A DNA stretch of 64,000 nt from the NCBI GenBank assembly GCA_003635255.1, contig PYJC01000065.1:1-64000 (forward strand), read 5' to 3'. This DNA comes from Candidatus Poribacteria bacterium (GTDB lineage Bacteria > Poribacteria > WGA-4E > WGA-3G). The position numbers and the translations under genes were made by a program. The notes under the pieces were generated by a model that worked only from the letters and a program-made list of their open reading frames with translations, was not told the DNA's origin and did not search any database. This document shows positions 1,337 through 60,990 of the stretch, piece by piece (position 1 is the first letter of the stretch; each line of letters starts with the position of its first letter).

Positions 1337-2368
1337 ATGTTTGTTTCAGTAAAGAGTAAGTCGGGCAAGAAGCTAATGCCGACACACCCTAACAAAGCAG
1401 GTATGCTTATTAAAAAAGGCTTAGCGACACCTTATTGGTCTAATGGTATCTTCTGTATTCGGCTTAACTATGTTACAGAAGACGAATACACGCAAGATAT
1501 AGTTGTCGGTGTAGACCCTGGCAGTAAGAAAGAGGGTTTTACTGTCAAATCAGAGTCTCATACCTACTTGAATATCCAAGCCGACGCACACAATAAAGTG
1601 GGTAAGAAAGTAGCCAAACGTAGTGAGTTGCGTAGAAGTAGGCGTTCTCGCAAATGTCCGAATCGCAGGAACAGAAAGAACCGTAATGCGGGGAAAGAAA
1701 AGATACCTGCTGGCACGCGGGCAAGGTGGGATTGGAAACTACGAATACTTAGTTGGCTGTCGAAGTTGTATCCAGTCACGCATGTCTGTGTAGAAGATAT
1801 TAAGGCACCGACGATAGAACGTGCGAGGAAATGGAATACGTCTTTTAGTCCGCTTGAAGTCGGTAAGAAATGGTTTTACGATGAGATTAGAAAACGTTGG
1901 TCATTGCTAACACTTCAAGGCTATCAGACGAAAGAGATACGAGATAGATTAGGTCTCAAGAAGTCTTCTAAGAAACTATTAGAATCTTTTGATGCTCACT
2001 GTGTAGATAGTTGGTGTCTTGCATATCACGCTGTTGGCGGGGAAAGTATACCTGATTACACGGATATTTTCTGTATATCACCTATAAAGATAAAACGCAG
2101 AGAGTTACACAGACAGAAGGAATCAAAGGGACGCATACGTTCACGACAAGGTGGCACTGTCTTAGGTAATGGACTTATTAAAAACACTTTGATAAAGCAC
2201 GTTAGATACGGTATCACACGCCTCGCTGGTGTCAATGCAAAAGGCTTGTTTTCAGTATACAACTTAGAAGGAAACAAACGTATTACAACAGGGGCAAAAC
2301 GTTCTGATTTCAGAGTGTTGACACGCCTTAACTTTAACTATAGGAGCGGGTATTCCTCCCAAGCCTAA
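1337..2368 (+). CDS. IsrB-like (HNH-less IscB relative) RNA-guided nuclease candidate, RRXRR/RuvC protein
   Basis: N-terminal PLMP-like motif KKLMPTHPNKAGMLIKKGLA; RuvC-I VVGVDPGSKKEGF; Arg-rich bridge KRSELRRSRRSRKCPNRRNRKNRN; RuvC-II VCVEDIK; RuvC-III DAHCVDSWCLA; no HNH between RuvC-II and III. Confidence 0.8.
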   Translation: MFVSVKSKSGKKLMPTHPNKAGMLIKKGLATPYWSNGIFCIRLNYVTEDEYTQDIVVGVDPGSKKEGFTVKSESHTYLNIQADAHNKVGKKVAKRSELRRSRRSRKCPNRRNRKNRNAGKEKIPAGTRARWDWKLRILSWLSKLYPVTHVCVEDIKAPTIERARKWNTSFSPLEVGKKWFYDEIRKRWSLLTLQGYQTKEIRDRLGLKKSSKKLLESFDAHCVDSWCLAYHAVGGESIPDYTDIFCISPIKIKRRELHRQKESKGRIRSRQGGTVLGNGLIKNTLIKHVRYGITRLAGVNAKGLFSVYNLEGNKRITTGAKRSDFRVLTRLNFNYRSGYSSQA

Positions 2369-32218: not shown

Positions 32219-32267
32219 AGTGTTTTTACTTACAAGAAACCCTCAAGCAAAAACGGTGTTTCTTGTC
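32219..32267 (-). repeat. copy of the GTGTTTTTGCTKGGGTGTTTC mini-repeat inside a REP-like hairpin
   Basis: Reverse complement nearly matches 34774-34822. Confidence 0.75.
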
Positions 32268-33554: not shown

Positions 33555-34505
33555 TTACGGAAGATTATCCATGATATCCGATTCGATTTCAAAATAACGA
33601 CTCAAACTAAAATAGCGTTCTCCGGTGTCTGGCAGAATCGTAACAACCGTTTTATCCGGTCCCTGCGCCTTTGCAACCTGTAATGCGGCATAAACATTCG
33701 CACCGGACGACATTCCGACTAACAATCCTTCGGTTCTTGAAATTGTCTTCATCATTTCATAAGCCTCTTTTTCAGAGACTGTAATAACCTCGTCGATAAC
33801 ATCTACATTGAGCACTTCGGGAATCATCCCCGCGCCAAGTCCATCAATCCGAGTAGGACCCGGTTTACCGCCAGAAAGCACCGCTGAAACGCTCGGTTCC
33901 ACAGCAACCACTTTCACATTCGAGCATTCTGTCTTTAAAACTTCTCCAACACCTGTCAGCGTCCCGCCTGTACCGACCCCTATAACGCAAAAATCAATAT
34001 CAGTACCGATTGCCTTGAGAATTTCGACTGCTGTCGTACGGCGGTGAATTTCGGGGTTTGCGGGGTTCGTGAACTGGTTCGGCATATAGTGCCGTGGATT
34101 CTGTCTGACAATCGCTTCTGCCTCCCAGATCGCACTCGCCATGCCACCGTGTTCCGGCGTTAGCACAATTTTCGCACCGAAAGCGGAGAGGAGTTCATAT
34201 TTCTCGCTGCTTACGTTTTCTGGCATCGTCAAAGTAACAAGATACCCTCTTGAGATCCCGACAATAGACAACCCCAAACCCGTATTACCAGCCGTCGGTT
34301 CAACGATAGTATCCCCTTTTCTAAGGATACCCCGTTCCTCAGCATCAACGACCATTGCATAGCTAATCCGATCCTTGATACTGCCGCCGGGATTGTAAGC
34401 CTCCAATTTAGCGAAGATCCTCGCATCGTCCTTACCGGGCAGCGCATTCAAGCGAATCGTCGGTGTATTCCCGATGAGGTCAGTCAGGTTTTTAGCGATT
34501 TTCAT
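33555..34505 (-). CDS. cysM: cysteine synthase (CysK/CysM family)
   Basis: NTPTIRLNAL, KLEAYNPGGSIKDRI, EPTAGNTGLGLS, GTGGTLTGVGEVL. Confidence 0.93.
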   Translation of the reverse strand: MKIAKNLTDLIGNTPTIRLNALPGKDDARIFAKLEAYNPGGSIKDRISYAMVVDAEERGILRKGDTIVEPTAGNTGLGLSIVGISRGYLVTLTMPENVSSEKYELLSAFGAKIVLTPEHGGMASAIWEAEAIVRQNPRHYMPNQFTNPANPEIHRRTTAVEILKAIGTDIDFCVIGVGTGGTLTGVGEVLKTECSNVKVVAVEPSVSAVLSGGKPGPTRIDGLGAGMIPEVLNVDVIDEVITVSEKEAYEMMKTISRTEGLLVGMSSGANVYAALQVAKAQGPDKTVVTILPDTGERYFSLSRYFEIESDIMDNLP

Positions 34506-34708
34506 TTTTCATCCAAATAACCACGCACGATACCGCTTCCGCAACCCTATTTTAGGTATAACCGCTTCAAAAAAATCACTTTAAAGTATACCATATACAC
34601 CGCAAAAAGTCAAATTTTCCAGATGAGGGGTGTGTAAATATTTTGGCATCTGCTCCTATAGAAGCAGTCTGAGACATAACTCAGTCACAGGGTACCACTA
34701 CAGAAATA

Positions 34709-34984
34709 CCATAGGTGTCAATTTTAGAAAAAATAACCGTTGTAGTCCCAGGCCCGGTAGGTTCGGTTTCCTAGAAGAAACACCGTTTTTGCTTGGGTGT
34801 TTCTTGTAAGCAAAAACACCGAACCGGATTTTACACCTTAAAGACTTCAAAATCTCTTGAATCCCGTAGGGATGGTATCTCTGTAGAAATGGGGAGTTAA
34901 AGAAAGATAAAGCCCCGTAGGGGCGGCATTTGTAGAGATGTTCCCACAAAATACCGTGAAATATCCCTAAATTGACACCTATGG
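34709..34984. mobile_element. ~276-bp MITE-like element with 16-bp perfect TIRs
   Basis: CCATAGGTGTCAATTT (34709-34724) / AAATTGACACCTATGG (34969-34984); flanking 21-bp direct repeats GGGTACCACTACAGAAATACC at 34690-34710 and 34983-35003. Confidence 0.8.
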
Positions 34985-35220
34985 GTACCACTACAGAAAT
35001 ACCTACACGACTATAACAGACCATACGCTTGGCGTGAGAAGGTCCCCTATCTGTCAATAAATCTCTTTGCTCCAGCGGAGCAACATGTCTATAGAAGAAG
35101 ACGGGCACTTCTCCCGCACTCCAGCGGAGTGCTATGTAAACAAACCTATCCTATCCAAAAAATGAATCCTGTGACAAAAACTTTACACACCCCATTACGA
35201 TAAGACGTAGAACTATCCAC

Positions 35221-37011
35221 CTAACACCCTTGCAATAGAGCCACTATTACCCCGATAGCCGCGAAGATGACAATTTGTAAGAGGCAACCGGTATCGCTTC
35301 TTCTCCGTTGCTGTTCAAATACCCGTCTCCGTTGAATATTCATTGCAGCTAATGTCGTTATATCCTGACTAAGTTGATTATTGACTTCATCCATCCCATG
35401 CACCCCTTGAAACACTCCAATTAGCGCGTTTGTGATCTGTGTGGCGAAATCAAGTTCTTGATGTTCGTTCCAAAGATGAAGGGCTATGTTTCTCACAATA
35501 ATTGCCACAGCATTATTTGTATCGATTGGTTGTGTAGTATCCCATGACTTGACAGATTGTATAAGCCGATTGACCATCGGAGTTAAAGTATAATCCGGAT
35601 GTCTCGCGTCAGCAGCTGTCTTAAGTTGTTCAACTTGTGTGTTGATGTTTTCAAAACTTCTCATTCCAACCAATGTTGTTTTGTCTTCAGTAAGTCGTGT
35701 TACTACTTCGACACCTACACTGCTTGCGTTAAATACGTCAATCAACGCGTTTGTGATCTGTATGGCGAAATCAAGTTCTTGATGCTCGTTACAGAGATGA
35801 AGGGCTACCTCTCTAACAGTAAATGCCACGCCGCTATTTGCATCGACAGATTGTGTAGTATCCCATGATCTGACAGATTGTATAAGCTGATTGACCATTG
35901 GTGATAAAGTGTAATCCGATTGTCTCGCGTCAGAAGCCTCCCTGAGCCTTTCAGCTTGGGTGTTGATATTTTCAAATTCTTCTATGATTTCCACAAGACG
36001 CGCTTGTTCTTCTAATTCCCTTAAATCCTCTAAATCGTCGCTGATCTGTTCGACAATTTCTGGCACTTCAGAGAATACGTCCCTGAGTGTATTTAAGATT
36101 CTTCTGGAGAAATCAGGTCTACGGTATTCGCCGAACAGATTAGCAGCCAACTGTCTAAAACGCCGTGCCATTTCAGAACTGGCATCGTGCCTTTGACCTG
36201 TGTTTTGTCTGCTTAACTGAATCGGTTGTACAAGCGTGTCCCACTCTTGTAGAGATTCCAGGAGTTGATCTACAATCTGGGATAGTGTCGTATCTGGATG
36301 TTGGGCATCTGCCATTGCTCTGAGTTGCGCGTCTTGTGCCTCAATTATTCTCTCGTGTTGTTCCAGAGAATCTTGCACGCTGCCTTCATACGCAGGAATT
36401 AAATCTCTAATCAGCGTAGGGCACTGATACCTACCGTTGCTTGTTGTTGTTTCAAGTAGTGATGTCATAACGCGCGCCCGCGCGTTAACCGACAGGTTTT
36501 CCAAAACAGAAGTAACGGTTTGGGAGTAATAGCGTTTCTGGTTCCGAATTGCGTCATCAACAGTTGACATATCTGTAATTTCGGGTAAACCAGATGCTCT
36601 ACGATCCCCGTTGAGTACGGCACACACTGTTTCTGAATTGATAGATTCAGACGTTTGTGCAATTGTGAGTATCCATTCCACGATATCAGATGACGAAAGT
36701 CCAGGGTGTCTTGATAATTTGGTGGCACGCAAATTCGCACTCACGATAGGTGCCATTGTAATGCTGGGGAGCTCTTCATTTGGTGATTCCAAGTATCTGA
36801 ATAGGAGACCATAGAAGGACGGGTCAACCCCTGGCAGCCACGCCACTTCTGCAGAGGTCCGCCTACGCGGGTTGGTTAGTATAGCTCGCGCCTCCATACA
36901 CTCGTCGGCATCCGATAACAGACTCCGCTCGTCTGCAAGTTCCATTATGCTGTGCCGGTTATCTCGCGTCGTAGCACCCAAAATATGAAAAGGGTTTTTG
37001 AAAAGGTCCAC
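35221..37011 (-). CDS. J-domain-like (HPD-less) N-terminus plus three ~107-aa repeats and a C-terminal TM anchor
   Basis: NPFHILGATTRDNRHSIMELADERSLLSDADECMEARAILTNPRRRTSAEVAWLPG; repeats of DARxxDYTLxPMVNxLIQSVxSWDT; terminal CLLQIVIFAAIGVIVALLQGC. Confidence 0.75.
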   Translation of the reverse strand: MDLFKNPFHILGATTRDNRHSIMELADERSLLSDADECMEARAILTNPRRRTSAEVAWLPGVDPSFYGLLFRYLESPNEELPSITMAPIVSANLRATKLSRHPGLSSSDIVEWILTIAQTSESINSETVCAVLNGDRRASGLPEITDMSTVDDAIRNQKRYYSQTVTSVLENLSVNARARVMTSLLETTTSNGRYQCPTLIRDLIPAYEGSVQDSLEQHERIIEAQDAQLRAMADAQHPDTTLSQIVDQLLESLQEWDTLVQPIQLSRQNTGQRHDASSEMARRFRQLAANLFGEYRRPDFSRRILNTLRDVFSEVPEIVEQISDDLEDLRELEEQARLVEIIEEFENINTQAERLREASDARQSDYTLSPMVNQLIQSVRSWDTTQSVDANSGVAFTVREVALHLCNEHQELDFAIQITNALIDVFNASSVGVEVVTRLTEDKTTLVGMRSFENINTQVEQLKTAADARHPDYTLTPMVNRLIQSVKSWDTTQPIDTNNAVAIIVRNIALHLWNEHQELDFATQITNALIGVFQGVHGMDEVNNQLSQDITTLAAMNIQRRRVFEQQRRRSDTGCLLQIVIFAAIGVIVALLQGC

Positions 37012-37051
37012 ATCTTCTCCAGATTATCAAGCGTTAGCAAAACCTATAGCA

Positions 37052-38257
37052 TCAGAAGATCTGTTGTTCACGCTGTTCGGCGATTCTATTCAATGCTTCA
37101 AGGTCAGCAGTGATACGTTCAGCAATTGCCGGAATTCCAGCGAATACATCTTTTAACATATTCAGGATTTCTTGAGAAAGATCAAGTTCGTCATATTCAT
37201 TAAAAAGATATATAGCCAATAGTCTGACACGGTCTGCTGCATCGTGACTTGCATTATGACGTAATCCTTGTCTGTTCTTGCTGAGTTGAATTGGTTGTAC
37301 CATCACATACCAATCCTCAATAGTCTGAAGAAGTTCATCCACTATCGAATGGAAAATGGGGTCCGAAGTTTCTTCATCCGCTGCAATTCGGATTTTCTTG
37401 TCTAATGCTTCAATATTTTTTTCTTCGATTTCGAGAAAAGCCGCTGCGCTGTCACCATAGGCACCAACACTATCCTCAACCAGAATTGGCCAACGGTTTG
37501 TATCACTATCCGTTGCAGATTCAACGACTGTCATTACGACTTTAGCGCGTGCTTTAGCGGAATGTATGTTATCCAAAGCAAACTTGATAACTTGTTGATA
37601 GTAACGTCTGCAATTCTGGATTTCCGATGTTATATCTGAAAGTTCCGTTATTGCCGGAAAACCTGAGGCTTCGCGTTCAACGTTGAGTATCGCTTGCACT
37701 TCCGATGGATTAATATTCTCAAATGTTTGCACAATCGCGAGTATCCAATCGGTAACAACGTCAGGTCTGTAGTCAGGTAAACGCAACATACGCGCAGCGA
37801 TCAAATTTGCACGTGCGATAGGCGTAAGTTTCCGGATGCCGAGAAATTCGCTGACTACCGTGAAATCTCCTTTTGAAAATTTTAATGTCTCCAAAACTTC
37901 GTCCGCAATAGTGGATTTTTTGGCGTAAGGCACACGGACAAGAACCTCAGTAAGCGAATCAACGGGTGCGGTGGATGTCGTGTTATCAGAAGCGAGGCAA
38001 TTCCCTACGGATGATTCTAAAAGCAGTAATATATCGTAAACGCGTTTGGGGTTAACACCGGGCAGCCATGCCACTTCAGCAGAGACCCGCTTGCGTGGCA
38101 TAGCGAGTTCTGCCCGTGCCGCCATACATTTATCAACATCTGATAACAGGCTCTGTTTTTCTGCTAATTCTATTATTCTCTGCCGGCTGTCTTGCTGCGT
38201 GGCGTTTAAGATATAAAAAGGATTTCGTAGAAGATCCATACTGACATAGTTTTCCAT
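37052..38257 (-). CDS. J-domain-like (HPD-less) N-terminus protein, paralogue of the 35221-37011 product
   Basis: MDLLRNPFYILNATQQDSRQRIIELAEKQSLLSDVDKCMAARAELAMPRKRVSAEVAWLPG; start chosen at MENYVS (38257), ORF extends to 38287. Confidence 0.75.
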   Translation of the reverse strand: MENYVSMDLLRNPFYILNATQQDSRQRIIELAEKQSLLSDVDKCMAARAELAMPRKRVSAEVAWLPGVNPKRVYDILLLLESSVGNCLASDNTTSTAPVDSLTEVLVRVPYAKKSTIADEVLETLKFSKGDFTVVSEFLGIRKLTPIARANLIAARMLRLPDYRPDVVTDWILAIVQTFENINPSEVQAILNVEREASGFPAITELSDITSEIQNCRRYYQQVIKFALDNIHSAKARAKVVMTVVESATDSDTNRWPILVEDSVGAYGDSAAAFLEIEEKNIEALDKKIRIAADEETSDPIFHSIVDELLQTIEDWYVMVQPIQLSKNRQGLRHNASHDAADRVRLLAIYLFNEYDELDLSQEILNMLKDVFAGIPAIAERITADLEALNRIAEQREQQIF

Positions 38258-38276
38258 TATCCGCTTTTTTCTGAAA

Positions 38277-40823
38277 TTACCCTGCAAGAATATTGGTAAT
38301 CATACTTTGCATTGCGTCATGATCTGCAGCCCCACCAGTCCGAGGGATTGACATTATCTGAGCGACAACGCCGCGAAGCTGGTCAACAGCCTCACTTCTT
38401 ATTGTCGCTTCTCTTCTACCGGCTAATATTTCTTGAATCTCTGGATGTTCCATGAGTTGTGTTCCGATATGGACGAGTTCTTCAAAACGGTCTGAATCGT
38501 CAAATCGTTCCGCATCAAGATTAGCCATGTATTTGAACTCTTCAATAACGAACCAGTCTTGCCTCCAGAGAATTTCAAAATTTCTGCCTCTCAGTTCATC
38601 CAGATGATCTGCAAAATCGTTGTCGTTATTGTCAATGGAACGTTGTGCTGTTTCTGCAAGATTGTCAAACGCAGTTTCCTCTGCTGGACGGGCATGCTGC
38701 CGAATATAGTTATCGAAAAAACCAACGGCCTTATTAAGGTCACTCTGCCGAATTTGCCTGCGGTTTCCAGGATCTTCCTCGATCTGTTTGAGAAGTCTAT
38801 CTGCCTCTGAATTAGCTTGATTTGCCTCTAGGACCTTTTCCATATCAGGCTCATCAGGATCAAGCATAGTGGATAACTCAACTTTCCTTCTCGCTTGCTC
38901 CAGTCTGGGATCGTCATCAATAAATTCTTCTATGTGCTCAATACGTTTCTGTATATGGAGACCCTTTTCAATGACTTGAGACGCAGCGGGCGTGAAACCT
39001 TCTTCAAAATAGTAGACATCATCGAATACCATGACGGTGCCTGCAACGTCCACTTCAACTGAAAATTTTATGTTTCCCCCAAGGGTTTTCTCATAAAAGC
39101 ATTTTAGGTCTGTGTTAATAGGAATTGATGATCCTTCAGGAAGATCTGTTCCTTCTATTTGTAGCAACCCGACATCGCTTTGGTTACCCATGGCATCTTT
39201 TTGCCTCAGTTTAAAATTAAGGGAGTTACCTGAACCGGCTTCAAGTAATTCCCCTGCTCTAACTGTTGTGTCTCCGTTTTTCGGGAGTAGATCGCTTTCT
39301 GTAACTAGATATTCAAGCTCAGGTTCTCCCCCAATTCTTCCCAAAACTTCCAAAGCGATTGAGAGTTCTGATGGTACTCTACCGGGACTAACATCCACTT
39401 TTGTAATGACGATTTCGTCCTCTTGTATCAAGTTTCCTGTAGCATCGTAAACAGAGGCTTTAAACGTATTGTTTCCGGGTTTTGTTAGGTTGACGGTAAC
39501 AACTTCACCGTGTGTAAGTGTAAGGCTGCCTGAATCCGATCCATCGTCCAGACCAACGATCTGAAATTTATAGTCAACTGGGGGCTGCCCTTCCACTCGG
39601 ACAGCAATTTTAGAAGTATCATCGGGAGTTCGGTCAATGGCATTGAAAATGATGATATCGGCCGCTTGTCGTTCCTGATCTTCCTGATCTTCTTGACCTT
39701 GTTCATCTTCCCAGCGAATAGACCCTGCAAAAATACTTGCTCCTTCAGCGACTGCGGTCATCGGGTCCACATCCGATATGTCCCCCTGAATGCCTAGTTC
39801 TGAGGAAACTTTGTCGCGCAGCGGTTTGTAATGTGTAGGTCCTCCCACCCACACAACGCATTCCACATCGTTAGGCGTATATCCGGTTTTTGAAAGTGTC
39901 TCTCTTGCCGCGTGTATCGTTTCATTGACGCGGTCTGCTATCAGATCGTTGTAAAAATCACGTTGCAAAGGAATATCCAAATAAATCTCGTCTCCATTAA
40001 GATCGTTCATACGGATTTCATCTTCGTACAGATTTATCGCCGATTCATTCTTTGCGGAAAGTTCTATCTTTGCCCGTTCGGTTGCCCAAGTAGCAAGCCT
40101 CAGCAACTTTTTGAATTGTGGATTGTTAGCGAGGTCATCGGGCAGGTCAAAATTGTCATAGAGCCAAGGTCGTACCAGGTTGTCAACGAGTGCTCTATCA
40201 AAATCCCGTCCACCACATAGTTCAATTCCACCGTTGGCAAGAAGATCTACCCGTTTTCTAATGCTTTCGGCAATCGTTATATCCAGTGTGCCACCCCCCA
40301 GGTCGTATATTAGAAAGATACCGTCAGTCTGGTGGGTTTTCATGAAACTCAGAACAGCGGCAATGGGTTCCTGCACGAGCTCGACACTACCGATGCCTGC
40401 CATTTCCGCAGCTTTCAGGGTCGCGTTTTTTTTCATCTGGTCGAACGCTGCGGGCACCGTAATCACGGTTCCTATATCAGGTGAATTTCTAATTTCCTCA
40501 GGGAGGTAGCCAAACAACGTCTTCAATATCTCTGCTGAGCATTCCTCTGGCGTTAGGGTGCGATTGACAGCAGACAACTCAATCGGCATGCCTGTTCCCA
40601 TAAAACGTTTGAATAGCGTTGCACAACTATCTGGACTGCGCGGGACTGCATTATAGGCTGTCTGACCAATCAATTGGCGCTCATTTCTGTCAAAATAGAT
40701 CGCAGACGGGGTTACGTCATTCTGTTCTGGACTCTTCCAAACTCGAGTTTGGAGTGTTTCTTTATCGTAGGTGCAGATGGCACTATTTGTTGTGCCTAAG
40801 TCTATACCGATATAATTCTCCAT
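38277..40823 (-). CDS. divergent Hsp70 (DnaK-like) chaperone with inserted Ig-like segment and extended C-terminus
   Basis: YIGIDLGTTNSAICTYD; FLIYDLGGGTLDITI; VVWVGGPTHYKPLRDKV; 848 aa with non-canonical post-NBD region. Confidence 0.9.
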   Translation of the reverse strand: MENYIGIDLGTTNSAICTYDKETLQTRVWKSPEQNDVTPSAIYFDRNERQLIGQTAYNAVPRSPDSCATLFKRFMGTGMPIELSAVNRTLTPEECSAEILKTLFGYLPEEIRNSPDIGTVITVPAAFDQMKKNATLKAAEMAGIGSVELVQEPIAAVLSFMKTHQTDGIFLIYDLGGGTLDITIAESIRKRVDLLANGGIELCGGRDFDRALVDNLVRPWLYDNFDLPDDLANNPQFKKLLRLATWATERAKIELSAKNESAINLYEDEIRMNDLNGDEIYLDIPLQRDFYNDLIADRVNETIHAARETLSKTGYTPNDVECVVWVGGPTHYKPLRDKVSSELGIQGDISDVDPMTAVAEGASIFAGSIRWEDEQGQEDQEDQERQAADIIIFNAIDRTPDDTSKIAVRVEGQPPVDYKFQIVGLDDGSDSGSLTLTHGEVVTVNLTKPGNNTFKASVYDATGNLIQEDEIVITKVDVSPGRVPSELSIALEVLGRIGGEPELEYLVTESDLLPKNGDTTVRAGELLEAGSGNSLNFKLRQKDAMGNQSDVGLLQIEGTDLPEGSSIPINTDLKCFYEKTLGGNIKFSVEVDVAGTVMVFDDVYYFEEGFTPAASQVIEKGLHIQKRIEHIEEFIDDDPRLEQARRKVELSTMLDPDEPDMEKVLEANQANSEADRLLKQIEEDPGNRRQIRQSDLNKAVGFFDNYIRQHARPAEETAFDNLAETAQRSIDNNDNDFADHLDELRGRNFEILWRQDWFVIEEFKYMANLDAERFDDSDRFEELVHIGTQLMEHPEIQEILAGRREATIRSEAVDQLRGVVAQIMSIPRTGGAADHDAMQSMITNILAG

Positions 40824-41656
40824 TATTCTACTCTCCTTAAAGTAACTGTTCCTGTTTTTGCTAAAACCGTTCCTTCCATGATAATTGGTTCCAGCATCTT
40901 ATCAACGACCAAATGATCCTCTGGTTCAAAATCCTCAATGTTAAGTGGCGTTGCAGCCATACCCGGATCATAGGGATAACCTTCAACATTCACAAGCCGT
41001 AGACCCGTCCTTTCAAGAGATTCCTCCGCCTTTTGGATGAACTGTTCTAATTGACGGATAGATCGTTGTGTCCGATTGGTGTTGAGTCGGGTAATCGCAC
41101 GTTCATAGTTTTTGGCGAAACGCCAAGATTCAATGGCTAAGTTAATAATAGCGTCTTTATGCGCCTCCACATTCCTTTCAGCCGTACGTTTTTCAGCAGC
41201 TTCTTTCACTCTGGTGATCCGATCAAGCATAGGTGGGTAATATTTCATACCAATGCACAAAGCCAATGGAAAGGGCATTCTATATAGATCCGTTTTCGTC
41301 TCTGGGAAGCCTACCAATAAGGCACAAACACAAAATTCAGTCGTAAAAAACATTGCCCATCCTGTCCAAGCGCGTACACGTCTCTGGGTATCAATAGATG
41401 GGACCGTCATTCGCGTTATAACATAGATGAGGGCTAAGGTGACTATCGTCCCAAGGCAGATTTGGGTAAAGATGTGAACGGAATTTCGTACTTCGGGCAA
41501 AATCTGGATAAATATTTGTGTCAGGAGTAAAAAGAACATGACCCAGAAGTAGATAGAGTCAGATTTTTCGGCATATCCTGTTTTCTTCACATAGTTTACA
41601 CAGACGACCATCATAGACGCTATGCAGGCGTAAACAAATATCTCTATTATTACCAT
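40823..41656 (-). CDS. membrane protein with C-terminal GrpE-like domain
   Basis: N-terminal TM helices; coiled coil; C-terminus GLRLVNVEGYPYDPGMAATPLNIEDFEPEDHLVVDKMLEPIIMEGTVLAKTGTVTLRRVE resembles the GrpE beta-domain. Confidence 0.65.
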   Translation of the reverse strand: MVIIEIFVYACIASMMVVCVNYVKKTGYAEKSDSIYFWVMFFLLLTQIFIQILPEVRNSVHIFTQICLGTIVTLALIYVITRMTVPSIDTQRRVRAWTGWAMFFTTEFCVCALLVGFPETKTDLYRMPFPLALCIGMKYYPPMLDRITRVKEAAEKRTAERNVEAHKDAIINLAIESWRFAKNYERAITRLNTNRTQRSIRQLEQFIQKAEESLERTGLRLVNVEGYPYDPGMAATPLNIEDFEPEDHLVVDKMLEPIIMEGTVLAKTGTVTLRRVE

Positions 41657-41713
41657 TTTTTCACGGTTTTCCTATAATAACCTCAAGTCCCACCTAAGCA
41701 AAAAAATTAGAAA

Positions 41714-42049
41714 TCAATAAATCCATATCAGATAAATTGTTATAGTAAAGTTCATAATTATTTCAACACGCCGTAGGGACCATAGGGACGATGAATGTGG
41801 GGTACTATCGCGGAGTGTAACATATTTTCGGATTCTGCTATAAACCAGTGGATCGTCTATACCAGTGGTGGCATCAGACTTAACATTTACGCTGAACCTT
41901 AATCCTTCTCCTTTATGGAAATAGTTCTGCATACATGGATATTCCGAGTTCACAGGCAATTTAAACGTTGCGACATGACCGTGTTTAAGCAAGAACAGCA
42001 ACGTCGTTCGCTTCTTACCTTTTGTGACGGATATTGTAAATGCTGCCAC
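41714..42049 (-). CDS. hypothetical protein in the Hsp70-like operon (uncertain)
   Basis: 111-aa ORF just downstream of the VWA-like gene; C-terminal part overlaps repeat-like DNA. Confidence 0.35.
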   Translation of the reverse strand: MAAFTISVTKGKKRTTLLFLLKHGHVATFKLPVNSEYPCMQNYFHKGEGLRFSVNVKSDATTGIDDPLVYSRIRKYVTLRDSTPHSSSLWSLRRVEIIMNFTITIYLIWIY

Positions 42050-42064
42050 CAGGCAAGGCGTTAA

Positions 42065-42922
42065 CTATTCTGACTGAATGAAGTTTTCAATCATATTTTT
42101 CAAACCTCCTGGATCCAATTGTTCAAAAAATTCAGTGTCCTTAATGCCCATAGTATTTAACCATGTCTCCCAATATGCTTGGATAATGTCAAAATCTTGG
42201 AAATATTTTACTCCATTTGCTTCGCGTAGTTGGATTTCAAGCATCAAGAACTTTATATTGAAATCACTGAAGTGTCCGACTGGACGTAACCCCTCACTTC
42301 CGTTTTTTATTTTTTTTACTGCTTCCGGATCACCACGCAATGCTCCAACCCTCATATCTGTTCCTTTGGGACGGCTAACATCAAAATTGAGGTAGCCATC
42401 AGAAAGACAGATTATCAAATTCTGATGGTTTTTTGAAAAGGAAGACTCCGCTTTAGATCTAAACCAATCCCAAATATCTGAACCAGTTTGCGGGTGTTGC
42501 TGTACATGGTCATATAACTCCGAAATAGCATCAATTAACTCCTTTTTCTTTTGTTGGAATGCAGGATTTTCGCTACGTTTTCTTGGTGCCTCAATTGTCA
42601 GTCTATTTATGATTTCATTCGGCGGATCCGATACTCTGGGCTGCTCTGGAACTGCGAAAGCAAGTCTATGTGGCGTTTCAATTGTGCCACCTCTCATGAT
42701 GGTGGGCTCAACAAGTTTGTAAAACTGATCAACAATCTCCTTTAGAATGTCAATATCTCTTTCTCTTTGGTCGGAATGTTTTTCTTCACAAACACGATCC
42801 GACGTATCAATAATAACTATGATATTTACGGGAGCATCTGATGCCTTACTATCCGAATGGCTCACATTTAGGAAAATAAGAAATAGGATATACATTACTA
42901 CACTGATATTAATTTTTTTCAT
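42065..42922 (-). CDS. secreted VWA-like protein
   Basis: Signal peptide MKKINISVVMYILFLIFLNVSHSDSKA; NIIVIIDTSDRVCEE and LIICLSDGYLNF resemble VWA beta-strand/MIDAS regions. Confidence 0.6.
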   Translation of the reverse strand: MKKINISVVMYILFLIFLNVSHSDSKASDAPVNIIVIIDTSDRVCEEKHSDQRERDIDILKEIVDQFYKLVEPTIMRGGTIETPHRLAFAVPEQPRVSDPPNEIINRLTIEAPRKRSENPAFQQKKKELIDAISELYDHVQQHPQTGSDIWDWFRSKAESSFSKNHQNLIICLSDGYLNFDVSRPKGTDMRVGALRGDPEAVKKIKNGSEGLRPVGHFSDFNIKFLMLEIQLREANGVKYFQDFDIIQAYWETWLNTMGIKDTEFFEQLDPGGLKNMIENFIQSE

Positions 42923-42932
42923 ATAAAAACCT

Positions 42933-44465
42933 CTAAACTGTTTTAAGGGTTGTTTTGAAATTCTCAAGTGTCTGCTTGGCAAGTTCTTGGATCTCAATGA
43001 TTTGGCTTGAGACTTCCTGCGGTTGAAGGTCGGTTCTACATTGTGCTACATACCGACACCATCCCGTCACGAATTCATTAGCCTGTGCTTCCATCTTCTT
43101 TATGTCAATAACCCTTTCACGTTGCCCCTTTAAGTGCGTACCAATCTCAGATTCACAACGATCAATTTCCATTTGAAGACTGTCAACCTGCTCGTTGAGC
43201 AATTGAATTTCGGCTTGGATACTTTGGATTTCAGTATCTAAGCCAGCAATTTGACTTTCAATCGGATGCCTATATGTTTTGATAAGCGAATCTGAATAGG
43301 CTTGCTTATCTTCATAAATCCGACTTAAACCTTCTTCTAAATTTTGGATTTCAGTGTTCAAAGCAGATAGCTCAACCAGCTTATCCTTTTTCTCTGCTCT
43401 AATCTGTATTTCCATCTGCGTAGATTGATCGGTTTGTGGGCGAGGGTTTTCCCATAATCCTAATATCCAATGTAAACCTAATCCTAACAGGACTGAAGGA
43501 CCAAAACCTAAGAAAAGAAAAAGTAAGAATAGCAGTCTAAAACTATCTTGACTCTGCCCGTTTGTAGATGCGGCTTTCTGTGCCTCAACTATGTTATGGG
43601 CAATTCTCCATCCAATTGTCGCTTCGATCAACAAAGTTGCTGCCAAAAAAACACTGAAATATATCCATCTTGTCCATTTTTCAGATTCCAGACTGAGATG
43701 CGTTACGATTGCGAGTACTATGAAAATAAAGGGAAACATAAGAATCAACCAATTCCGCGGATTATCGTCGCTGAATTGCAATGATCTATCTAACGCTTTG
43801 TAATCAATTAAAGCAGTTAAATCCATATCATCACTCGATTTAACGGTCTTTTCACCTGCAGACACATAGAAAAGATAGAGATAGCCAAATAGCCCAATAA
43901 CCGCAGCTGTGGCAAAAATCGTGAAAATCAATTTAGGGAGCCCCGTAAATAATTTAGAAAACCAGTGTCGTAATTTAGAGAACCAGTCTTTTGAGGATTG
44001 ATGGATCGTACCTTCAGTGTTTAAGGCATCTAATTCAACCCGGGTTGGCGATTCTAACTCAATTTCGACCTTAGCTATTTCTGCTTTCTTGGATTCCATA
44101 TCTGAAATCTTCTCTTCAATTTTCTCGTTTAGTTCCACCATACGTGAACCTTCCGATGTCTCCAAGATTTCTACTGGGGAGTCCAATTCTACTTTCAGTT
44201 CGGCTAATTTTATATTCTTTGTTTCAAGTTCCTTAGTTGCCTCTTTAATAGCATTTTGCCGTTGGGCCTTCTGTTCCTCAAGTTCGGTTTTATCCTCAAC
44301 TAAACCCTTCATTTCTGCTTGATAATAATCGTCGTTAAATGCGATTTCAAGATTCTCATCACGGACAATAACATTAAGATGTTCTTGTAGTGCTTCTGTC
44401 ATTCCTCTACCTGCAGCCGCGCAAGCAAAACCACTGTCCGCACTATAATAAGGTTTACCGTTCAA
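42933..44465 (-). CDS. coiled-coil / four-TM / coiled-coil membrane protein
   Basis: Long heptad stretches flanking hydrophobic helices; TTG start overlapping the upstream TGA (TTGA). Confidence 0.75.
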   Translation of the reverse strand: MNGKPYYSADSGFACAAAGRGMTEALQEHLNVIVRDENLEIAFNDDYYQAEMKGLVEDKTELEEQKAQRQNAIKEATKELETKNIKLAELKVELDSPVEILETSEGSRMVELNEKIEEKISDMESKKAEIAKVEIELESPTRVELDALNTEGTIHQSSKDWFSKLRHWFSKLFTGLPKLIFTIFATAAVIGLFGYLYLFYVSAGEKTVKSSDDMDLTALIDYKALDRSLQFSDDNPRNWLILMFPFIFIVLAIVTHLSLESEKWTRWIYFSVFLAATLLIEATIGWRIAHNIVEAQKAASTNGQSQDSFRLLFLLFLFLGFGPSVLLGLGLHWILGLWENPRPQTDQSTQMEIQIRAEKKDKLVELSALNTEIQNLEEGLSRIYEDKQAYSDSLIKTYRHPIESQIAGLDTEIQSIQAEIQLLNEQVDSLQMEIDRCESEIGTHLKGQRERVIDIKKMEAQANEFVTGWCRYVAQCRTDLQPQEVSSQIIEIQELAKQTLENFKTTLKTV

Positions 44466-44890
44466 AGATGTTCCCCCTCTTTAGGTGCTGGCGATCTTCT
44501 GTTGGAAAGTTTACTGAAACGTGTCAAAAATTGTGATGTCCATTTTCTCCAAGGACTGTCAGAACTAACACAATTGGCATGTGATGGTTGACGTTTATGA
44601 ACCTCTTTTAATTTTTGTATTGCTTCTGATGGTTCTGGGAATATGAAAAACTCACGATCTTTGTTAAAACGCAACTCGTTGAGTTCTTGATGTATCAAGG
44701 TTTCAAGTTCCTTTGGGTTGTCACAGAATTCCTCGTGAGCAACATCAAAACGCGTTGGCACCCCAGTTATAGCCCTACCGTTTCTGTCTCTATAAAGTTC
44801 CTCTGCTCGTTCTTCAGCTGTTCTTTCTGTATAGCCGATTTTTACTAAGTTTGGCATACCTTTGTTCGTCAAGATATAAACACTTCCCAT
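44462..44890 (-). CDS. GIY-YIG (T5orf172/MUG113-like) domain protein
   Basis: GSVYILTNKGMPNLVKIGYTERTAEERAEELY. Confidence 0.85.
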   Translation of the reverse strand: MGSVYILTNKGMPNLVKIGYTERTAEERAEELYRDRNGRAITGVPTRFDVAHEEFCDNPKELETLIHQELNELRFNKDREFFIFPEPSEAIQKLKEVHKRQPSHANCVSSDSPWRKWTSQFLTRFSKLSNRRSPAPKEGEHL

Positions 44891-45128
44891 AAAGTTCCTT
44901 TCATAAATGTAAGGGGATTTAACATCTCCGAGTTGTCGGAGGGTTCCATACCGCCGCGCCTACCTAATCTGCAAATCCGGTCTAAATTCTCAAAAGCCGT
45001 ATACATATTTGGACGATGGGTTGTTAAAAACCGACTGGACGGGATTTAGGTATTTTCCAACCTTGCGAAAGATGATGCACAACCTAACAGGTTATGCTAC
45101 ACCGTTTACATTAGCAGTACGGTTTCTG

Positions 45129-45989
45129 TTATCGGTTTTCGAGTTGTCGACGGAGTTGTTCTAATTCACGTTCTAATGCCTGCCGCCGCTCCGTCTCTTC
45201 TACAGCCCGTGCCTCCGCTTCCGCGCGAAGATCCCGTTCTGCTTCCACACGGAGCTCTGCTTCTTCCGTCCGGAGTTCCGCTGCTTCCACACGCTTTTTT
45301 GCTGCAGCGTGAAGGTTACGCTCCTCTATAGCAGTCGTGATCGGGGTGCCATCGGGCAAATACGGACGTAACAACCGGACATGGCTATGGTGTTGATCCG
45401 CCCACCGGAACGACAGGTTTAATGACTCGCTGAATAAGGCACCGCGTGGATCGGGCGGTATTTCAACAATGGCACCTGAAGGCTCCCGCCGCCACCCGCG
45501 AAACTCTGCGGGTTTCTCCATCTCAGGCTGATGGAGGAAGTACTCTTGTACCCCCATATCCTGCAGGTAGATATGGACCTTTTCTTCTCGATCCTCATCG
45601 GCTGTTGAATCCGATAGGAACTCAAAAACAATCGTTGGTGTTGCACCTTCTGCCCAAGTATAGAAACTCCTACGGAGTGGAAATTTCGCTGCACCTAAAA
45701 CGACATAAATATCAGGGGCGACGCTTTTCGTGACATCGCCCTCGCGGTAATAGATGAAGTTGTCAACGCCGACATAGATGTGTGGTTGCATTGCGAAATA
45801 ACTGGAGAATTGTTCGTACAAGCTGCTGGTCTGTTCGCCGTGGAATCCGGTTGCGGGCATAGGTTCCTCATCTTCGTATGGGTAGCCTGGTATGTAAACG
45901 GTGGGTTTTCCAGTCGCTTTTGGAAAGGTCGGCATATATTTGTGCTGTTTGCGTTCAAAGTCGGTAAGAGGTTTCATGCTTCTCTCCAT
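45129..45989 (-). CDS. Uma2-family (DUF820) endonuclease-like protein with C-terminal coiled coil
   Basis: VAPDIYVVLG; PTIVFEFLSDSTADEDREEKVHIYLQDMGVQEYFL; (A)EAELRVEAERDLRAEAEARA tail. Confidence 0.85.
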   Translation of the reverse strand: MERSMKPLTDFERKQHKYMPTFPKATGKPTVYIPGYPYEDEEPMPATGFHGEQTSSLYEQFSSYFAMQPHIYVGVDNFIYYREGDVTKSVAPDIYVVLGAAKFPLRRSFYTWAEGATPTIVFEFLSDSTADEDREEKVHIYLQDMGVQEYFLHQPEMEKPAEFRGWRREPSGAIVEIPPDPRGALFSESLNLSFRWADQHHSHVRLLRPYLPDGTPITTAIEERNLHAAAKKRVEAAELRTEEAELRVEAERDLRAEAEARAVEETERRQALERELEQLRRQLENR

Positions 45990-46062
45990 ATCTGCGTGTT
46001 TTTCCTTTAATTTTAGCAGGAATGTGCGTTGTTAGCAATTTGAATCGCGGCTTGTGCAGCTT

Positions 46063-46869
46063 TCACTCCTGATTCTCACGCCATTTTGCGAAATCTGCCT
46101 CGATTTCCTCCGACCATTTGCGATCTATTTCACCCGGCGTGTAGACCCCTTCACGCAGCCGTTGATGCCCGAACCGATCGCGGAGAGCGACCTCTTCGCC
46201 TTGCTCAACGACCTGCTGTGCAAAATGCGGTGGAATAAAAATAACACCGCCGCGCCTGCCTAAAACGACATCACCGGGTAGAACTGTCGCCTCCGCAATC
46301 CGGATGGGGATATTGATACCCGTCAACGTGACGTTCGCAATCCCAGTCGGATCCACACCGCGCACGAATGTGGCGAAATCAGGCAACTCGTAGATGCCAT
46401 CCAAATCGCGGATGCCACCGTCAATGACCATGCCAGTTCCCGTTTTCGCATAGATAGAATTGCCGAGGTTATCGCCAGCAAAAGTGCCGTCTTTCACCTT
46501 GCCAAAGAGATCCACAACGATAACATCGTCACGGACGAGCGTATCAATCACCCACGAGTTTTGACCCCCGACGCGTCCCTCTTTTTCACCCTGTGCAGAG
46601 AGAGCATCGTTGAAATCGGGACGAATCGGCACGAAAGCACATGTTACCGCTCTGCCGACGAGAATCCGATCCGGATGGAGGTTCATCCAATCGCCAGCGA
46701 ATTGGAACTGATAGCCGTTACCATGCAGAACCCCCCACGCCTGCTCAATGCTGATCGCCTTCATCCGCTGAATGATATCGTCGGGGACGCGGGGTCGTCC
46801 ATCAGGAAACCGATCACCTTCCCATAGATGTGTCATCGCGAGGATGCTCTCTTTATTGATGAGTTGCAC
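46063..46869 (-). CDS. RraA-family protein
   Basis: GDNLGNSIYAKTGTGMVIDGGIRDLDGI; GDVVLGRRGGVIFIPPHFAQQVVE. Confidence 0.9.
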   Translation of the reverse strand: MQLINKESILAMTHLWEGDRFPDGRPRVPDDIIQRMKAISIEQAWGVLHGNGYQFQFAGDWMNLHPDRILVGRAVTCAFVPIRPDFNDALSAQGEKEGRVGGQNSWVIDTLVRDDVIVVDLFGKVKDGTFAGDNLGNSIYAKTGTGMVIDGGIRDLDGIYELPDFATFVRGVDPTGIANVTLTGINIPIRIAEATVLPGDVVLGRRGGVIFIPPHFAQQVVEQGEEVALRDRFGHQRLREGVYTPGEIDRKWSEEIEADFAKWRENQE

Positions 46870-56975: not shown

Positions 56976-57024
56976 TATCCTCGCCTAATTACCGATTTAT
57001 TTTCTTAAACTTCATCAACCTCAC

Positions 57025-57288
57025 CATCACTGTCAATTTAAGAAAAACAACCGTCGTGGACCCAGGCCCCGTAGGTTCGGTTTCCTAGAAGAAACACCCC
57101 AGCAAAAACACCGAACCGAGTTTTACACAGATCCCTTGAAGACTTCAAAAACCTCTTCAGTCGCGTAGCGACGGCATCTGTGTAGAAAAGTTGGACATCC
57201 TGGACCCAAGCCCCGTAGGGGCGGCATCTACAAACATGATCCTGTGAAATGCTGTGGAATATCCCTAAATTGACCCTATGGGTTATAA
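57025..57288. repeat. second, more degenerate copy of the 34709-34984 element
   Basis: Colinear blocks: actgtcaatttaagaaaaacaaccgtcg; ccaggccccgtaggttcggtttcctagaagaaacacc; gccccgtaggggcggcat; ggaatatccctaaattgaccctatggg. Confidence 0.75.
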
Positions 57289-59526: not shown

Positions 59527-60990
59527 CCCAAACCTAAAGGGTTGGGCTTCGGTTTCGTAGACAGTGCGGTTTTCTCATAGAGTAGACCGTCTTAATCCGT
59601 CTCCACCAGCGGGTATTTCCCTTATGTTGTTTTAGAACACAAGGCATATCGTCAAGTGACGGCTATCCCTGCCCGCAAAATATTTAGCGCAGCGTTTATG
59701 TCTCTATCATGGTGGGAACCACATTCGGGACATATCCACTCTCTATCGTCCAATGTGAGATTTTCGTTATGAAAACCACAATCGCTACAAGGTTTCGTTG
59801 TAGCTGTCCATCGTCCGATTTGTTGGAACTCACGTTTATGCTTTTGACACTTATATTTCAATATCTCAACAAACTTGTAGAAGGCAAGGTCAGATACCTT
59901 ACGACCCCAAAGCCGTTTCATGCCGTCAAGGTTCAATGTCTCAAGGAAAATCGTATCAAACTTCTTACAAAGTTCAGAGGCGAGTTGCCAATGAAAGTCT
60001 TTACGTTGATTGCTGATCTTCCGATAAAGACGTGCGATTTGTCGCACACAATGCCACCACCCGTTAGAACCTTTTTGCTTACGACTCAATGCTTTGTTGA
60101 GAGATCGAAGTTTCTTCAAGTTAGTTTTCAGGGGTTGTGGGTGTTGTATCTTTTCACCCGTGCTCAGTGTCAAATAAGCGTCTTTCATTCCAAAGTCTGC
60201 CCCAACGCTTTTACCTGTTGTTGGCAGAGGTCTAAAATCTTTGTAGGATGTCGTTATACAGACCCAATATCGCCCACAGGTGGCACGCTTTATCGTAACT
60301 TCGGTGATAGTTCCGTGCCACTGCCGGTGCTTGTGAAAAGTATATGCGACTTTATCAAACTGCCATTTACGGGTCTGCGGATTCCACTTGCGAAAAGTCA
60401 ATGTCATACGATTATTATACAAAGACCACCCAGCAGAACTCGGATGCGTAATAGACTTAAACTTACGTCTCGGCTTAATATGCGGTCTACCGCCAAGTTT
60501 CTTAAAAAAACGGTCATACGCTTTATGAATACGCTTGAGTTCCTGTTGCGTTGCTTGGCTTGGCAATGCGTTCCAATGCGGGTGTGTCGTCTCTTTCAAA
60601 TGTTTCAGGTGATCACACATGCCCTCATAGTTTACATAAGGAAGCCCGTCTTTATGCCTTTGACGTTGCCACTCGTGAAAATACACATGCACTTGCCACA
60701 TATCATCAAGCAAGTTGCCAATGCGGATACTATTAGACTGATCATAAAGCGGATATTTATACGTTTTCATGGACTATCAAGTATCAAGTCTTTAACCCCT
60801 ATACAGTGGGTAGGTAGACACGCAACCAAGCAGTTACGCTGTATATGTCTACCAACTTAATACAGTAAGTATACTACAATTTTCGGTCAATGTCGAATCT
60901 TTTTTCAACTATAGACCCCCGGTCTAATTCACTGAGGCGGTTCTGTATCCCAAAGCTAAAGCATTCGGCTTTAGAACCGAAATTTAGGTA
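59527..60990 (-). mobile_element. TnpB-only IS605-family element
   Basis: End hairpins CCCAAACCTAAAGGGTTGGG (59527-) and CCCAAAGCTAAAGCATTCGGCTTTAG (~60949-60974) flank an intact tnpB; no tnpA present. Confidence 0.65.
59652..60770 (-). CDS. tnpB: TnpB-family RNA-guided nuclease (IS605 OrfB)
   Basis: RuvC motifs SVGADFGMKDAYL, IFLETLNLDG, HDRDINAALNILRAG; zinc finger CSDCGFHNEN...CPECGSH. Confidence 0.93.
   Translation of the reverse strand: MKTYKYPLYDQSNSIRIGNLLDDMWQVHVYFHEWQRQRHKDGLPYVNYEGMCDHLKHLKETTHPHWNALPSQATQQELKRIHKAYDRFFKKLGGRPHIKPRRKFKSITHPSSAGWSLYNNRMTLTFRKWNPQTRKWQFDKVAYTFHKHRQWHGTITEVTIKRATCGRYWVCITTSYKDFRPLPTTGKSVGADFGMKDAYLTLSTGEKIQHPQPLKTNLKKLRSLNKALSRKQKGSNGWWHCVRQIARLYRKISNQRKDFHWQLASELCKKFDTIFLETLNLDGMKRLWGRKVSDLAFYKFVEILKYKCQKHKREFQQIGRWTATTKPCSDCGFHNENLTLDDREWICPECGSHHDRDINAALNILRAGIAVT

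Follow-up and report, generated by a model that had tools for sequence, protein, structure and literature searches.

The window, as the whole 64,000-nucleotide stretch of contig PYJC01000065.1 from Candidatus Poribacteria is called here, carries at 35221–44890 eight tightly packed open reading frames (ORFs), all on the minus strand and all at the positions given in the preliminary description. The last four in the direction of transcription, 41656–35221, encode a divergent Hsp70 and the proteins associated with it, and we consider them probably a mobile, self-contained Hsp70 module, a likely ATP-driven inner-membrane switch against phages or other invaders. The first gene of the conserved core encodes a GrpE-like protein of 277 amino acids (aa; 40823–41656) with four N-terminal transmembrane (TM) segments and a C-terminal GrpE-like domain. 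It is followed by the 848-aa Hsp70 (38277–40823), with an ATPase domain at residues 1–367 and a predicted flexible linker, two beta domains and helical C-terminus, by Hsp70 partner 1 (37052–38257), an all-helical protein of the NPF-IL...AEVAWLPG family with 401 aa counted from its ATG, and by its 596-aa paralogue, partner 2 (35221–37011), which is internally repetitive and bears a TM tail at its C-terminus (residues 575–593). TM segments were called by hydropathy. Within the module, the components with TM segments are the GrpE-like protein and partner 2, by which the window version would be anchored to the membrane; the other TM-bearing products of the region belong to a separate module described below.

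Among relatives, the order GrpE-like, Hsp70, optionally an AAA gene and a gene for a tagged membrane protein, and finally the helical partner is kept in beta- and gammaproteobacteria, Nitrospira, Planctomycetes, a sponge Synechococcus, Fretibacterium and one Escherichia coli. Scanning 85,462 species genomes yielded 63 loci, chiefly from beta- and gammaproteobacteria, the remainder being distributed over Poribacteria, Nitrospira, Planctomycetes, sponge Synechococcus, deltaproteobacteria and Fretibacterium, and tblastn against plasmids recovered the partner gene in Aeromonas, Shewanella, Polaromonas, Vibrio and Sinorhizobium, always near an Hsp70 gene. The Hsp70 gene stands beside a GrpE-like gene in 64 of 68 usable loci, and where at least 9 kb could be followed past the Hsp70 start (41 loci), the partner is present in 40, a Cdc48/FtsH-type AAA protein in 37 and a GFAGLSSLVSDVD-type tagged protein in 35. 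Because the window and Fretibacterium versions are devoid of the AAA and the tagged protein, GrpE-like protein, Hsp70 and partner would represent the minimal core. The co-occurrence of this Hsp70 with the NPF(H/Y)IL...AEVAWLPG family, named as a check in the preliminary description, is borne out not only by these counts, but also by a natural fusion: in one genome (G002) the Hsp70 ATPase or nucleotide-binding domain (NBD) and partner 1 share one uninterrupted 794-aa frame, in another (G006) the same fusion adjoins a full Hsp70, and in a third (G011) it is visible at a contig edge. What had been suspected to be an NBD-only Hsp70 in G002 and G011 turned out to be this NBD-partner fusion, which confirms the coupling of Hsp70 and partner.

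The designation as a divergent Hsp70 is upheld for the ATPase domain, where the Pfam HSP70 match (PF00012, E=1.1e-51) is confined to residues 5–367; past residue 370 no Pfam or PDB sequence match was obtained. The window protein shares 47–51% identity over the full length with three plasmid-borne relatives and 34% with the Sinorhizobium copy. The ATP-site residues checked, the phosphate loops and the equivalents of K70, E171 and T199 included, are invariant in 31/31 Hsp70s of the module family bar conservative L/I and F/L changes, in agreement with membership of the Hsp70 ATPase-domain family, so that ATP hydrolysis is to be expected. The residues by which DnaK holds the J-domain are, judged from the same alignment, lost: the equivalent of R167 is alanine in 30/31 sequences, glutamate in the window and arginine in none, the equivalent of Y145 is alanine in 30/31 and that of D148 glutamine in 31/31. 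The AlphaFold2 (AF2) model proposes two beta domains followed by helices for the C-terminus, with a predicted template modelling score (pTM) of 0.47 and weak domain placement. Foldseek relates the model to DnaK (1.7e-28) in an alignment which extends past the ATPase domain, whereas the sequence methods show no such match. A pattern for the LLLDV-type linker found no match in the module Hsp70s, but also missed the reference DnaK.

The two partner proteins had been described as possessing J-domain-like N-termini, an assignment that has to be abandoned. The HPD motif is absent in 40/40 partner sequences, PF00226 did not match, hhalign against real J-domains gave a probability of 0.1%, a J-domain hidden Markov model (HMM) run over 1002 ORFs did not rank the partner family and Foldseek with the whole partner chain retrieved nothing from the PDB at E<0.001; J-domain identity was rejected on the absence of the motif, of a profile match and of a whole-chain fold match. 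Only the helix order agrees, with modelled helices at residues 25–38 and 41–52 separated by a two-residue turn. As its profile shows no significant similarity to those of real J-domains, the partner is not filed as a J-protein. Both halves of the canonical contact between J-domain and Hsp70 are lost, and the partner may still do the job of a J-protein, as the fusion suggests. The AF2 model of partner 1 (predicted local distance difference test 88, pTM 0.84) is all-helical; F14, R57 and E61 are strictly conserved in the family and WLPG at 64–67 is nearly invariant. Partners of relatives are 22–35% identical to partner 1, and the paralogous partner 2 is 45% identical to it. Neither paralogue has a convincing Pfam family, and in PADLOC-DB partner 1 meets only a weak HEC-01B match (0.0097).

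For the GrpE-like protein, the four TM segments (residues 2–20, 32–50, 62–80 and 99–117) and a remote homology of the C-terminus to GrpE stand as predicted; the curated cut-offs are not reached, neither by the Pfam GrpE match (E=9e-4; 19.4 versus 25.8 bits) nor by that of NCBIfam (2.8e-6; 27 versus 194 bits). An HMM built from 26 true GrpEs and run over the 1002 ORFs found members of the GrpE-like family in 18 of its 21 matches at E<1, and GrpE is the sole Pfam family that recurs among the GrpE-like proteins (17 of 45). The hhalign comparison with GrpE is marginal (E=0.019), in natural register, and its column-shuffled decoys are unreliable with two anomalously high scores, so that remote homology, which is supported, rests on the HMM ranking; searching PDB profiles with the small GrpE-like alignment brought no useful match. 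The C-terminal domain is 44–47% identical to stand-alone proteins of 114–130 aa encoded upstream of Hsp70 in four plasmids. From the three-part chaperone cycle initially proposed, the Hsp70 ATPase and, remotely, the putative GrpE-like exchange factor are retained and the J cofactor drops out.

In 44 proteobacterial and cyanobacterial loci an N-terminal tag of the GFAGLSSLVSDVD type (K-GFAGLSSLVSDVD) occurs, and one tag can head otherwise different proteins of one locus, namely peptidoglycan-binding, T2SSM-like, SH3 and ankyrin-like ones (examples are L007:10186-11631 and L007:14854-15903). PG_binding_1 domains are found in tagged proteins, and in most proteobacterial versions a cytoplasmic N-terminal tag is common to periplasmic peptidoglycan-binding proteins, as if it were a label by which the Hsp70/AAA machine recognizes them. 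The window module contains no AAA gene, and tagged proteins are absent from the window as from the other poribacterial regions, so the core would work without them.

The preliminary description had set this locus apart from the housekeeping dnaK/dnaJ/grpE genes, rightly: DnaK of the window genome is encoded on contig C52, GrpE and DnaJ on C147, and one true GrpE is present elsewhere in the genome in 20/20 carriers tested, proteobacterial and other. By its placement the Hsp70 module is an extra copy distinct from the housekeeping set, and the partner gene is patchily distributed, in 9 of 59 Poribacteria-related genomes. The window genome harbours further accessory Hsp70 genes, one on contig C87 accompanied by genes for a GrpE (4.1e-8) and for a J-like protein that lacks HPD, another on contig C130 adjoining a gene for a formylglycine-enzyme-domain protein. 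A phage origin of the module was considered and discarded, as the Hsp70 C-terminus had no match among 50,697 phage records; three IMG/VR contigs turned up.

Upstream of the GrpE-like gene, on the same strand, lie the genes for a GIY-YIG protein (44462–44890), whose identity is corroborated by Pfam T5orf172 (E=9.7e-16) and PADLOC PDC-S57 (1e-22), for a coiled-coil protein with four TM segments (42933–44465) and for a secreted or membrane-anchored protein with one N-terminal signal-type segment (42065–42919). The latter had been called VWA-like, a name we keep as a label only: a DxSxx-like motif is its sole hint of VWA, HMM support is nil, and neither it nor the coiled-coil protein has a convincing Pfam family. 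By gene content, the proposed seven- to eight-gene operon 44890–35221 is two neighbouring modules, each of which occurs independently elsewhere, and the single-operon model was rejected on this distribution. GIY-YIG, coiled-coil and VWA-like genes are found together, in the order of the window and without Hsp70, in three other loci; the VWA-like gene adjoins one for a longer coiled-coil protein in four more, and a coiled-coil gene adjoins the VWA-like family in all ten loci retrieved for that family, one of them the window. Conversely, none of the three nor the small ORF was detected by tblastn beside another copy of the window-type Hsp70 (loci L006–L076), not even in the closest, which lies on a Poribacteria contig and shares the rraA flank of the window. 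The VWA-like gene is present in 17 of the 59 Poribacteria-related genomes and shares four of them with the partner gene, on separate contigs in each except the window. The small ORF (41714–42049) has no homologue in any locus compared, lies inside the 408-bp gap between the modules and is probably no gene; a promoter and terminator scan of this stretch gave nothing above chance.

Both modules reside in a variable hotspot of 11,557 bp (34506–46062) between rraA (46063–46869) and cysK (33555–34505), which also includes a Uma2-family gene (45129–45989). Seventeen genomes, the window's and those of 16 relatives, have the two flanks on a single piece; three of them show an empty interval of 142–185 bp and the others 1.8–14.2 kb of differing cargo, the GC content of inserted genes being 0.38–0.45 versus 0.49–0.54 for flanking genes. 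Elsewhere, Tn7-like elements carry the Hsp70 module as cargo next to TnsD/TnsE; on a Polaromonas plasmid it lies between ZorA/EH-signature genes and BREX-2, and the single carrier among 5426 E. coli, HeN100, has a version of five genes (NZ_CP044443.1, about 4115537–4122320) in a tRNA-Phe island, adjoining RADAR rdrB, a toxin-antitoxin pair and the remains of dptF. The module appears to travel between genomes by lateral exchange through such defence hotspots.

Other occupants of the rraA-cysK hotspot are coiled-coil/VWA-like modules and sets with ZorA-like (4.6e-13), ZorB-like (2.9e-15) and tubulin-like proteins. The latter sets, of 13–14 kb, are present in five hotspots and encode ZorA-like, ZorB-like and Tubulin_2-like, secreted and TM proteins as well as a long protein weakly matching FtsA/MreB; with PADLOC and Pfam run on one of them (L165), whose gene-size pattern the other four share, the set has the look of a Zorya relative equipped with cytoskeletal components. 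A Sacsin-domain-type protein with a C-terminal HNH (L115:5033-8734; Tiamat TmtA match 3.2e-63) adjoins a coiled-coil/VWA-like module, as does a second one (L116:2770-6522), the HMM match being known for the former only. Next to cysK, in L169 (316-15833) and L172, Tubulin_2 (9.7e-44) and a zinc-ribbon Hsp70 (1.3e-28) are encoded with several TM or secreted proteins, with HMM values from L169 alone, and a GmrSD/HEC-06-like gene is located beside cysK in genome G016; the rraA flank was not reached in these cysK-side genomes. Phd/YefM-type antitoxin-like genes (L107:6879-7381 and L108:12432-12725) and, in L107, a short PIN-like ORF were recognized by eye between Hsp70 module and cysK. Outside the hotspot, the window encodes an IscB/IsrB-like RRXRR-domain protein (1337–2368, plus strand; Pfam 1e-29) and an IS605-type TnpB/OrfB (59652–60770, minus strand; Pfam 6.3e-22; Cas12f1-like TNB 4.8e-22). 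A degenerate interspersed repeat at 34708–34986 and 57023–57283 (72% identity over 287 columns), with shorter pieces at 32220, 48267, 53864 and 56948, gives rise to spurious 'CRPYGA' ORFs.

In the mechanism that we propose, the ATP-bound Hsp70 would use its non-canonical C-terminal region to grip a target. Standing in for a J-protein and docked to the ATPase domain via another surface, the helical partner would link target recognition to ATP hydrolysis, and the membrane-bound GrpE-like domain would reset the Hsp70, the switch sitting on the cytoplasmic side of the inner membrane, where it might sense infection and trigger a protective output. The preliminary description had left defence, stress and surface assembly side by side; the genomic context favours defence, from which we also infer protection itself. 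More tentative, with the chances slightly against it, is the claim of an undescribed immune system crossing phyla, with the Hsp70 acting as infection-triggered switch and not as folding chaperone, and a new helical partner that docks by a new surface in place of the J-protein; in proteobacteria the Cdc48-like AAA and tagged membrane proteins would provide the output at the envelope.

Several observations weigh against a defensive switch. The GrpE match stays below the curated cut-offs, the C-terminal fold and interdomain arrangement of the Hsp70 are modelled with low confidence, and the GrpE-like/Hsp70/partner triad includes no nuclease, toxin or NADase effector. PADLOC-DB 2.0 holds no model for the proteobacterial Hsp70, GrpE-like protein or full-length partner, and the window Hsp70 and GrpE-like protein have no match in the database. 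The enrichment near defence genes, likewise suggested beforehand, is only suggestive: 120 PADLOC models were matched at 1e-15 among 135 mostly proteobacterial neighbours against 5 among 126 control ORFs from 18 of the carrier genomes, but, because one protein matches many models, the excess in separate proteins is just at least 11/135 versus at most 4/126. Islands also carry stress and metabolic genes. The main rival is a mobile proteostasis or stress-tolerance set which protects or disaggregates envelope proteins in a role comparable to transmissible stress-tolerance loci. The combination of Hsp70, GrpE-like protein and, in most relatives, a Cdc48/FtsH-type AAA indeed resembles an unfoldase or disaggregase set, and the tagged periplasmic proteins of most proteobacterial versions as well as the membrane anchors of the window version would suit such a function. 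We regard it as rather unlikely, since the identifiable co-occupants of the hotspot are defence or conflict genes and not stress genes, the module has lost the interface through which J-protein and Hsp70 meet in general chaperones, and no small heat-shock protein, ClpK or other heat-resistance family stood out in the top 25 of 101 families from the 135 neighbours.

Less probable still is an island-borne chaperone for the assembly or surveillance of envelope structures with the tagged membrane proteins as clients; the recurrence of the tag on different membrane proteins, some with PG_binding_1, is what such a chaperone would predict, but tagged proteins are missing from the poribacterial regions and no recognisable surface-structure genes recur among those top 25 families. 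That the whole of 44890–35221 forms one system, with the GIY-YIG and VWA-like proteins as Hsp70 effectors, as their description as Hsp70 partners implied, is very improbable despite shared strand, close packing and adjacency, given that the upstream trio is absent beside all other Hsp70 loci examined, occurs without Hsp70 elsewhere and, in genomes with both modules, is kept on different contigs outside the window. The defensive inner-membrane switch remains our preferred interpretation.

Hsp70-containing conflict operons have already been predicted. In the literature library searched, no description of the module's gene set was found, only analogues, and newer or non-open literature may hold a description; a survey of Tn7-like cargo and one of E. 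coli defence islands do not mention chaperone genes. Widespread, fixed in gene order, with a fusion found in nature, an altered co-chaperone interface and a naturally occurring E. coli copy, the module is directly testable in K-12, and, should the interpretation be true, J-domains are not the only means by which an Hsp70 is driven; the rraA-cysK hotspot is a ready source of more candidate systems in Poribacteria. The nearest published counterparts are two kinds of system defined by GTPases, GAP1-N2 systems and Hsp70-bearing CoCoNuTs. Conflict systems centred on a GAP1-N2 GTPase include HSP70, GrpE and DnaJ-FNIII (Kaur et al. 2020, PMC7159879) and are alike in joining Hsp70, GrpE and a co-chaperone-like protein in operons with a predicted role in biological conflict; the tubulin/zinc-ribbon Hsp70 set of L169 resembles the tubulin/HSP70 systems of the same study. 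In contrast to the GAP1-N2 systems, the module has a core without GTPase, a partner without J-domain and FNIII, and a strict gene order, which in proteobacteria includes an AAA gene and one for a tagged membrane protein. CoCoNuT type III-A/NxD McrBC relatives carry Hsp70-like NBD and substrate-binding domains, and their CnuD is predicted to hydrolyse ATP very poorly (PMC11090510). In both, an Hsp70-like ATPase has been taken into what is predicted to be a defence system, whereas the module has invariant ATP-site residues and no McrB-type GTPase; Pfam found neither this nor a GAP1-N2 GTPase domain in the eight window ORFs. With IetAS, the proteobacterial version has in common an AAA protein matching IetA models (2.2e-27), but through a generic AAA domain and without a subtilisin partner seen, and the window version has no AAA. 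From the housekeeping DnaK-DnaJ-GrpE set, with which it shares an Hsp70 ATPase domain with full ATP-site residues and an adjoining GrpE-like gene, the module differs as a separate, horizontally patchy copy with membrane anchors and a divergent C-terminus, from which the J-domain and the residues docking it are lost.

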